Positions 2,832 through 5,719 of a stretch of 20,781 nt of DNA are shown here, one piece after another. A program made the translations under genes and the position numbers. This DNA is from a virus, in the IMG/VR virus record IMGVR_UViG_3300030333_007368, positions 2,996-23,776 of that record. The stretch is one strand, 5' to 3'. Numbering within the stretch: position 1 is the stretch's first letter; every line of letters starts with the position of its first letter. The notes beneath the pieces are model-generated. The model was not told the DNA's origin. It did not search any database and was given only the letters and a program-made list of their open reading frames with translations.

Positions 2832-3443
2832 GTGGCAAAGGGTATAGTACAAAGAATAACGATGGATGAAGTCAAGTTAAAACTTGGCAAGCTGTCGTTG
2901 ACGAATCAGTATCAGGTTAATTTTTCAGCTTTGAATAAAACTATAACTGATTTTCTTAAAGATTCTGGAATTGATAATGCTGATATTTTTCTATCTAGAG
3001 ATGTCGGAATTCTTTGTTCTGATGCATCATTACCTGCTAGTGCATTTGCAACAGGAGAAGTAAAGGATAATTTTATGGGAGTACCGCAAGAGTTTGCCCA
3101 TACCCGTTTATATACTGATATTGATTTTACTTTTTATGTTGATGAAGATTATACATCTTTAAGTATTTTTGAAGGATGGATGGATTATATTTCTAGTGGA
3201 GCAGATAATATAGATCCTGATGAAAAAGCATATTTTAGAAGATTTAGATATCCAGATGATTATAAAGTTAATACAATGACTATTGTTAAGTTTGAAAAAA
3301 ATATTGAAAGAACTTTGATGTATGAGTTTAAGAATGCCTTTCCTAAATCTATTACATCTTTACCTGTTACATATGGAACAGCAGATTTAATGAAAGTTAC
3401 AGTCAGCTTTAACTATGATAGATACGTTGTAACAAGAAGTTAA
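2832..3443 (+). CDS. 54: Tail-tube-fold protein, probably gp54-like tube initiator
   Basis: This 203-aa protein has the features of the tail-tube family: an N-terminal strand (NQYQVNFSAL, 25-34), a SDASLPAS loop (63-70), a NFMGVPQEFAHTRLYTDIDF region (79-98), a FEGWMDYI helix (113-120), FRRFRYPDDY (135-144) and terminal strands ending FNYDRYVV (193-200). In T4 this fold occurs in gp19 (tube), gp48 and gp54. The neighbouring hub genes favour gp54, the protein that joins tube to baseplate, but T4 gp54 is longer (about 320 aa). A gp19-like or other tube paralogue is possible. The start is GTG with a weak TAAGG eight bases upstream. It opens the plus-strand operon, 38 bases from divergent gp4. 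Confidence 0.75.
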   Translation: MAKGIVQRITMDEVKLKLGKLSLTNQYQVNFSALNKTITDFLKDSGIDNADIFLSRDVGILCSDASLPASAFATGEVKDNFMGVPQEFAHTRLYTDIDFTFYVDEDYTSLSIFEGWMDYISSGADNIDPDEKAYFRRFRYPDDYKVNTMTIVKFEKNIERTLMYEFKNAFPKSITSLPVTYGTADLMKVTVSFNYDRYVVTRS

Positions 3444-3452
3444 AATTACTCC

Positions 3453-3460
3453 TATAAATA
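3453..3460 (+). promoter_or_regulatory. T4-type late promoter upstream of gp26
   Basis: TATAAATA matches the T4 late promoter box exactly. It lies in the 41-base gap between the tube-like gene and gp26, ending 24 bases before the gp26 ATG. The intergenic position and spacing support function. Confidence 0.7.
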
Positions 3461-3484
3461 AACTTACTGAAGTGTGAAAACATT

Positions 3485-4207
3485 ATGCCATTACCAAAGA
3501 TTAATACTCCGACTTATGAGTTAGTTGTTCCTTCTACTGGAAAAAAGATTAAATACCGTCCTTTTTTAGTAAGAGAAGAAAAAATACTTATTCTTGCATT
3601 GGAGAGTGAAGATACTGCACAGATAACAAATGCTGTGGTTGAAATATTATCAGAATGTATTCTTACAAAAGGAGTTGATGTTACTAAACTCGCTACTTTT
3701 GATATTGAATACTTATTTTTAAATGTTCGTTCAAAGTCAGTTGGTGAAACAGTTGAAGTTAATTTGACTTGCCCTGATGATGACATAACATCTGTTGAGA
3801 TGGAAATTAATATTGATAGTATTAAAGTTCAAAAAACTAGAGGACATAAGAATATTGTTAAACTTGACGATCAATATTCTATGAAACTTAAATATCCATC
3901 TTTTGATCAATTTATTGAAAGTAATTTTGATACGAGTGTAGATACTAGTGATGTTGATAAATCATTGAATATGATTACTAATTGTATTGAAATGATTTAC
4001 GATGAAGAGGAAAGTTGGGATGCTTCTGATTCAACTAAACAAGAATTGGAAGAATTTGTAGAGCAATTGAATAGTAAGCAATTTAAATTAATTGAAAAAT
4101 TCTTTGAAACAATGCCTAAACTATCTCATAAAGTTAAGTTAACAAATCCTAAAACGGGAGTTGAATCTGAAGTGGTATTGGAGGGACTAGCAAGTTTTTT
4201 CACTTAG
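3485..4207 (+). CDS. 26: Baseplate hub assembly protein gp26-like (chaperone G role)
   Basis: This 240-aa protein is of the gp26 type of T4-like phages (T4 gp26 about 208 aa), which acts in hub assembly. The visible family pattern is LPKINTPTYELVVPSTGKK (3-21), YRPFLVREEKILILALES (24-41), LTKGVDVTKLATFDIEYLFL (60-79) and VRSKSVGETVEV (81-92), followed by an acidic helical C-terminal half. The ATG has an exact late-type promoter box upstream. The last codons (AGT TTT TTC ACT TAG) form a -1 slippery site with a downstream stem-loop, so some ribosomes are predicted to enter the gp51 frame. By position and frameshift, I infer that it plays the role of lambda gpG, a tail assembly chaperone. Confidence 0.85.
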   Translation: MPLPKINTPTYELVVPSTGKKIKYRPFLVREEKILILALESEDTAQITNAVVEILSECILTKGVDVTKLATFDIEYLFLNVRSKSVGETVEVNLTCPDDDITSVEMEINIDSIKVQKTRGHKNIVKLDDQYSMKLKYPSFDQFIESNFDTSVDTSDVDKSLNMITNCIEMIYDEEESWDASDSTKQELEEFVEQLNSKQFKLIEKFFETMPKLSHKVKLTNPKTGVESEVVLEGLASFFT

Positions 4208-4383
4208 GTATGGCTCATACAAGTCTTGAGTCATACTATAAGGTAAATTTTGCCTTAATGCAACACCATAAATATTCATTAACAGAGCTAGAAAATATGA
4301 TTCCTTGGGAGAGGGAAGTTTATGTTACTTTATTAAAACAGTATATCGACGAAGAAAATCTGAAACAAAGTGCCAACAATTAA
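3485..4383 (+). CDS. Predicted gp26-gp51 -1 frameshift fusion (GT-like chaperone)
   Basis: Ribosomes that slip back one base at T TTT TTC (4195-4201) would read TTT TTT CAC TTA GGT ATG and continue through the gp51 frame to the stop at 4381-4383. The product is 239 residues of gp26, three linker residues (HLG) and the 57 residues of the gp51-like reading frame, 299 aa in total. In lambda and many other tailed phages, a G/GT pair made in this way guides tube subunits around the tape measure and is absent from the virion. Frame, slippery sequence, spacer and stem are seen directly. Actual frameshifting and its rate are inferred. Confidence 0.7.
4195..4236 (+). promoter_or_regulatory. Programmed -1 frameshift site with stem-loop
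   Basis: The heptamer T TTT TTC (4195-4201) is in the gp26 reading phase and fits the X XXY YYZ rule. The spacer 4202-4207 holds the gp26 stop TAG. A stem then pairs 4208-4217 with 4227-4236: ten pairs including one G-U (4213 with 4231), around a nine-base loop. The gp51 ATG (4210-4212) is inside the 5' arm, and no Shine-Dalgarno sequence is well placed for it, so frameshifting looks the more likely route to gp51. Confidence 0.75.
4210..4383 (+). CDS. 51: Hub assembly protein gp51-like small reading frame
   Basis: This 57-aa frame is too short for usual gene-size cut-offs. It starts MAHTSLESYYKVNFALMQHH and continues with YSLTELENMIPWEREVYVTLL (residues 23-43). Short proteins with this HH-x-YSL-x-EL...PWER pattern follow gp26 in marine T4-like phages and are usually annotated gp51, the hub assembly catalyst. 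They are much shorter than T4 gp51 (about 249 aa), so the name rests on annotation custom and position. The frame is -1 relative to gp26 and begins two bases after its stop. Its ATG is predicted to lie in a stem, and the purine-rich stretch at 4180-4186 is too far upstream to serve as a normal ribosome site. The likely product is therefore the C-terminal part of a frameshift fusion. The next gene overlaps its last 14 bases. Confidence 0.8.
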   Translation: MAHTSLESYYKVNFALMQHHKYSLTELENMIPWEREVYVTLLKQYIDEENLKQSANN

Positions 4384-5719
4384 CCCAGAAGTAGTACCTT
4401 CTAACGTAAAACTAAATATCACTAACATGAAAACCATCTTTAATGGTGGTGGGAAAGGTGGTGCTATTGTTCCAAAGAAAGGTGGTGCTCTTGCTCGTAG
4501 TGGTGGTGCTCTTAGTAGTGAAAAAGTATTTCAATTAAATGATTTTGATCCTTTAGAAAAAAGGGTTGCTGCTAATGAAAAGAAGATTACTCTTTTGAAG
4601 AATGTTTTAAAGGCACAAAAACCTTTTGGTGGTAATGAAGATAAGTTAGCAGAAATAAATTCTACTCTTCAAGATATTGGTAATGCATTATCATTAGATT
4701 TTGCTAATAGAATTACTGAGGGGAAGGAAGCAAATAAATTAAGAAAAAAGGAAAACGAAGAACGAAAGAAAAATCTTGCTGAGAAAAGTGTAGAAGGAAT
4801 AAAGGGTGCAGGTAAGAAGTTGGGTGCAGGTATCAAGGGAGTAGCAGCTAGTGTTGTTTCTCCATTTAAAAATGTTTTTGATAAATTAATTAGTTTTGTC
4901 ACATTATTGGGTGCTGGTATTGCTGGTAATGCTGCGATTACTTGGTGGCAAAACTTAGATTCAAAATGGAAAGATAGAATAACTGGCACGTTTAATTTCC
5001 TAGCAAAACATTGGAAATGGATTGCTGCTGGAGTTGGTGTACTTCTTTTAACAAAAGTTGTAAAGAAAGTAAGACAACTGTGGAAATTAATAAAGTTTGT
5101 AGGTAAGGGATTTTTTAAAGTTTTAAATGGACTTAGAAAAGGTGCTGTTGCAGCATTTAAAGGAATAAAATCAATATTTAAACATGGTGTAAAAAGAGCT
5201 GGAAAACGTGCATTAATTAAAACTGGAATGAAAACCTCTACGAAAGTAGCATCCAAGGTTACCAGTAAGGTAGCAACAAAAACAGCAACTAAGGTTGCAA
5301 CAAAAGCAACAACAAAAGCAGTAGGAAAGAGTGTTCTTAAAAAGATTCCTTTTATTGGATTAGGTGCAGGATTACTATTTGCTGGACAAAGAGCATTAGC
5401 AGGTGATTGGACAGGTGCTGGTTTGGAGTTAGCATCTGGTGCAGCATCAATGGTACCTGGTGTTGGAACTGGTTTATCAATAGCAATTGATGCAGGAACT
5501 GTTGCTAGAGATATTCATAGAGCAAAAAATGCGAATGAAGTTCCAAATTTAGAAGTTGATGAAACAAAAGTAATAGTAGAAGATTTACCACCTGTTAAAG
5601 TTCCTATACCAGAGAAGAAAGTTCCAGCACCAGAAACAACAGAAGTTGCTTTTATTAGTTCTATTAATCCTTTGAATGAATATATGACTTTAACACCAGC
5701 GTTGCACGGGATAGTATAA
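4370..5719 (+). CDS. Lys/Ala-rich helical protein, candidate tape measure
   Basis: This 449-aa basic protein has no family I can name firmly. In order: a Gly/Lys-rich low-complexity N-terminus (25-50); a coiled-coil-like segment (60-83, PLEKRVAANEKKITLLKNVL); a charged helix (118-145); hydrophobic stretches at 173-190, 214-230 and 325-341; a TKVASKV/ATKTATKVA-type repeat (290-320); a Gly/Ala-rich hydrophobic part (345-380); and a Pro/Val/Glu tail ending in LTPALHGIV. It lies directly after the G/GT-like pair, where tape measure genes are found, and T4 has genes 27 and 29 after 26-51. At 449 aa it is shorter than T4 gp29 (590 aa). The start is GTG at 4370, overlapping gp51 by 14 bases. An ATG at 4427 (residue 20) is the alternative start. 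Confidence 0.7.
   Translation: MPTINPEVVPSNVKLNITNMKTIFNGGGKGGAIVPKKGGALARSGGALSSEKVFQLNDFDPLEKRVAANEKKITLLKNVLKAQKPFGGNEDKLAEINSTLQDIGNALSLDFANRITEGKEANKLRKKENEERKKNLAEKSVEGIKGAGKKLGAGIKGVAASVVSPFKNVFDKLISFVTLLGAGIAGNAAITWWQNLDSKWKDRITGTFNFLAKHWKWIAAGVGVLLLTKVVKKVRQLWKLIKFVGKGFFKVLNGLRKGAVAAFKGIKSIFKHGVKRAGKRALIKTGMKTSTKVASKVTSKVATKTATKVATKATTKAVGKSVLKKIPFIGLGAGLLFAGQRALAGDWTGAGLELASGAASMVPGVGTGLSIAIDAGTVARDIHRAKNANEVPNLEVDETKVIVEDLPPVKVPIPEKKVPAPETTEVAFISSINPLNEYMTLTPALHGIV

Follow-up and report, generated by a model that had tools for sequence, protein, structure and literature searches.

The closest described systems for the locus analyzed here are the gpG/gpGT pair of phage lambda, the -1 frameshift signal of Escherichia coli dnaX and the tail assembly chaperone (TAC) genes 26 and 51 of T4-like phages. 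The lambda genes follow the order V-G-T-H. The dnaX signal is composed of a Shine-Dalgarno (SD)-like element about 10 nucleotides (nt) upstream, a slippery heptamer, and a hairpin a few nt downstream. The DNA analyzed in this work, referred to as the window, is a stretch of 20,781 nt of a marine T4-like phage, within an IMG/VR virus record of 23,776 bases (IMGVR_UViG_3300030333_007368), in which a gp26-like gene is overlapped at its 3′ end by a gp51-like frame. Because of the conservation described below, a programmed -1 ribosomal frameshift at this junction is nearly certain to yield two TAC forms from one gene.

The locus resembles the T4-like genes 26 and 51 in a tail chaperone with short and long forms, and probably lambda in having tail tube, chaperone and tape measure genes in this order. 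Its site differs from that of gpG/gpGT: it is a run of T only, ended by C, and is preceded by an SD-like element; near relatives share a downstream hairpin as well. All three parts of the dnaX signal are found in the window, although the heptamer is T TTT TTC instead of A AAA AAG, and the shift would extend the product, whereas that of dnaX truncates it.

A first-pass annotation of the window, made from the sequence alone, knew of no such frameshift for the T4 gp26/gp51 pair and suggested that the window might extend the G/GT system to T4-like marine phages. Passages in two later papers indicate otherwise. PolyT slippery -1 signals in T4-like TAC-N genes are mentioned in PMC12846349 (2025), citing Vladimirov, Gautam & Davidson 2022 (Virology 566:9-15), and PMC10885494 cites the same authors for the identification of T4-like chaperone genes and for some T4-like phages having one short and one long chaperone gene. 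As far as these citing passages tell, a frameshifted T4-like tail chaperone was thus reported in 2022; the main message is not new, and the novelty of the window case is low. Its value lies in showing how marine T4-like phages would make both forms.

Anatomy of the gp26/gp51 junction

The features of the junction, all on the + strand, can be read directly from the window, and those that the first-pass annotation had described were confirmed to the base. The gp26-like frame (3485–4207; 240 amino acids (aa)) ends with the codons AGT (4193–4195), TTT, TTC (4199–4201), ACT and TAG (4205–4207), so that the last T of AGT and the two following codons form the heptamer T TTT TTC (4195–4201) in the X XXY YYZ phase. 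This in-phase TTTTTTC occurs only once in the 6772 codon positions of the coding sequences (CDSs) of the window. A 6-nt spacer (4202–4207), which holds the gp26 stop, separates the heptamer from a putative stimulatory hairpin (4208–4236), with a stem of 10 base pairs (4208–4217 with 4227–4236, one of them G-U) and a 9-nt loop (4218–4226). The 45 nt 3′ of the heptamer fold with -16.9 kcal/mol (z -5.2), and none of 200 shuffles was equally good. The gp51 frame is exactly -1 relative to gp26 and remains open through the site up to a stop ending at 4383, which gives a fusion of 239 + 60 = 299 aa. The usual gp51 open reading frame (ORF) covers 4210–4383, and its ATG (4210–4212) sits inside the stem, without a well-placed SD sequence; GGAGGG (4180–4185), the one good SD-like sequence in the vicinity, is 24 nt away from it. 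This element, a putative stimulator of the shift, precedes the heptamer by 9 nt and had been overlooked by the first-pass annotation. A search of 4100–4400 against Rfam gave zero matches.

Slippage, its efficiency and its stimulation by the SD-like element and the hairpin are inferred. The majority of ribosomes would read gp26 to TAG and produce the 240-aa TAC-N, whereas a minority would stall at T TTT TTC, through the contact of the upstream GGAGGG with the anti-SD and through the downstream hairpin. Both Phe tRNAs would then slip by one base, from TTT TTC to TTT TTT, and reading would continue as CAC TTA GGT ATG, yielding the 299-aa TAC-NC (SFF|HLGMAHT at the junction). By analogy with lambda gpG/gpGT, the tape measure protein, a product of the gene that follows, would be covered by abundant TAC-N and scarce TAC-NC, and the tail tube protein would be brought in by the C-terminal domain.

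Heptamer, -1 frame and flanking elements among homologues

Homologues were collected from viral contigs and named phages with gp26 alone as the query, so that their retrieval was independent of the frameshift, and were clustered at 85% nucleotide identity into 104 representatives; the T4-type phage RB27, whose gp26 and gp51 do not overlap, is not among them. An in-phase heptamer beginning with six T was found in 103 of the 104 representatives (94 TTTTTTC, 8 TTTTTTT and 1 TTTTTTG), joining gp26 to an overlapping -1 ORF as in a G/GT-type arrangement, and the codon preceding it always ends in T. By comparison, Phe-Phe elsewhere in the same genes is written TTTTTC in only 4 of 99 cases. The conservation of the heptamer phase, one of the checks proposed in the first-pass annotation, is therefore nearly complete. 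One codon lies between heptamer and stop in 92 of 103 representatives, and the distance ranges overall from 0 to 24 nt. Since this distance varies, the heptamer is not kept by the overlap with the stop. The gp51 domain lies in the -1 frame throughout the homologues, and its product, counted from the heptamer, measures 59–75 aa in 102 of 103, with one short case of 17 aa.

Regarding the upstream element, a duplex with the anti-SD with dG ≤ -6 can form in the SD-like region of 81 of the 103 homologues, compared with 9.5% of background windows, and the signal peaks 10–17 nt upstream of the heptamer. Among the 84 upstream GAR-GGN pairs, 71 use GAG for Glu, against a GAG background of 32%.

Folding strength is highest directly after the heptamer. 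The observed folding was compared with that of synonymous recodings that preserve the -1 protein, which gave z -4.5 for the window stem and a mean z of -3.97 for the near relatives (n = 61), a constraint on the stem beyond coding; controls elsewhere gave z between -0.6 and 0. Over 57 distinct aligned rows, 82% of the cells of the window stem are paired, against 25–42% when the stem is slid. One subclade (L052, L053, L055 and L057) has neither the gp51 ATG nor the stem of the window, and carries a different stable hairpin at the same place, seen for L052 and L057 in the folding analysis and with z about -5 for L053, L055 and L057 in the recoding test.

Judged from these patterns, the heptamer and the SD-like element look old and the hairpin lineage-specific. 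With about even chances, the T4-like chaperone frameshift could be a modular signal: a heptamer shared by nearly all of the frameshifting groups in the sample, an SD-like stimulator that is widespread, and a hairpin that is largely confined to the cyanophage-like lineage and was swapped in one subclade.

RB27 and the alternatives to a ribosomal frameshift

The abstract of the 2022 paper reportedly describes frameshifting as conserved in several T4-like groups and T4 as using the separate genes 26 and 51, the contrast being the topic of that paper. In the T4-type phage RB27, the gp26/gp51 pair does not rely on such a frameshift. Here the two genes are found on opposite strands, without overlap or slippery site (in L090, gp51 at 2216–2965 on the - strand and gp26 at 3016–3642 on the + strand), and both products match PF12322. 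They are distant paralogues (BLASTP E 1e-05). RB27 gp26, similar to TAC-N, has an alignment that ends at the FF junction, whereas RB27 gp51 is a full-length relative with the same C-terminal domain, aligning nearly end to end with the fusion and matching phrog_150 over nearly its full length. PF12322 was found twice in RB27 and once in each of the 13 other phage records searched, and a second PF12322 gene, a separate full-length gp51 paralogue, was found in none of these 13. In phages of the RB27 type, a pair of genes seems to stand in for the frameshift, and the fusion-like gp51 of RB27, together with the single PF12322 gene elsewhere, supports a frameshift in the other phages.

A 57-aa gp51 could instead be made as a separate protein, by coupled reinitiation at the ATG at 4210, two bases past the gp26 stop, with no need of a fusion. 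An ATG close behind the TAG is indeed what reinitiation would use, one is present near there in 74 of 103 representatives, and GenBank annotates gp51 as its own CDS, for instance in P-SSM2. However, ATG, GTG and TTG are all absent between the heptamer and the conserved NF motif in 20 of 103 representatives, including Aeromonas phage 65, which has no such start near the junction; the position of the gp51 ATG is Leu in many homologues; and the -1-frame residues between the heptamer and the usual ATG site are similar across homologues. This rules out independent initiation as the general route. In addition, the ATG of the window is buried in the hairpin with GGAGGG 24 nt off, RB27 has both parts in one protein, and reinitiation leaves the synonymous conservation of the heptamer unexplained, all of which makes it very improbable. 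Even less probable is a -1 fusion produced by the RNA polymerase slipping on the T run. The six-T run, and the seven T of eight representatives, would suit such transcriptional slippage, but it usually requires longer runs to be efficient, and here a C terminates the run in 94 of 103, with no extension, and the phase is always X XXY YYZ, while the SD-like element and the downstream RNA fold would have no role. The phase of the heptamer, the missing gp51 starts and the stem constraint in near relatives thus favor the G/GT-type -1 ribosomal frameshift that the first-pass annotation had proposed.

Several observations weigh against this ribosomal frameshift, or against parts of it. Vibrio phage K397 has CTTTTC in place of the heptamer, with the -1 frame still open, the only broken heptamer among the 104 representatives. 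A strong SD-like element is missing in 22 of 103 homologues. The stem was expected to be kept with compensatory changes; constraint was found in near relatives, but covariation, which was looked for, came out weak (three pairs with double changes), and the 41 distant representatives gave a mean z of -0.75, most of them without constraint. A universal stem was accordingly rejected. The evidence is drawn entirely from sequence and prediction, and the homologues are mutually related, so that the counts are not independent and their significance is overstated. Finally, the fold match of a gp26 model to a known chaperone, 2ob9 (see below), has Z < 8, under the level that the tool regards as safe.

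For K397, whose gp26/gp51 junction carries an overlapping TAATG (L089, 3556–3590), the route may be coupled reinitiation or a one-codon slip. A gp51 CDS is missing from the annotation of Aeromonas phages Aeh1 and 65 and Agrobacterium phage Atu_ph04, although their -1 frame downstream of gp26 encodes the conserved domain (L086, 3717–3884; L087, 3705–3869; L084, after 3702). The small “gp51” gene of many records most likely does not give a free protein; if this is true, records such as those of Aeh1, Aeromonas 65 and Atu_ph04 lack the domain entirely.

Protein families and neighboring genes

Profile matches place both parts of the locus in the T4-like gp26/gp51 family (PF12322; phrog_150 and phrog_634). 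The zero-frame product, the TAC-N, matches PF12322 with E 9.6e-74 and 248 bits (cut-off 24.5) and phrog_150 with E 1.7e-80. The -1-frame extension, or TAC-C (4201–4383, + strand; 60 aa and the stop), joined after F239 and equivalent to lambda T, matches phrog_634 (E 1.2e-27) and positions 239–278 of phrog_150 (E 8.4e-06). These matches support the assignment of gp26 as TAC-N and of gp26-51 as TAC-NC, as putative equivalents of lambda G and GT.

An AlphaFold2 model of gp26 has a mean pLDDT of 85, and its first ~95 residues are nearest, by VIA-align, to 3fgx, the HK97 tail assembly chaperone 2ob9 and 3klu (YqbN). The match to 2ob9 covers 84 residues with Z 7.8 and root mean squared deviation 3.9; Foldseek ranked the same structure second, with a probability of 0.75 but E 0.87. 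The predicted fold of the N-domain thus supports the chaperone identity, although the agreement falls short of proof; the chaperone function is inferred. A sequence profile of the gp26-gp51 fusion found no relevant one among solved structures.

The locus is flanked, on the same + strand, by a tail tube protein gene at the position of lambda V (2832–3443; phrog_45, E 4.2e-41; PF23849, E 2.5e-20) and by a gene for a probable tape measure protein of 449 aa at the position of lambda H (4370–5719), which overlaps the end of gp51. The order tail tube–chaperone–tape measure is thus probable, with the tape measure assigned by position and by the genes of relatives, since searches with the genes at the same position in two relatives, Vibrio D486 and phiM7, gave tape-measure PHROGs (E 1.1e-06 and 1.8e-05). 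The 449-aa protein of the window itself gave no tape-measure match, only partial matches of its residues 185–384 to phage peptidase/endolysin families.
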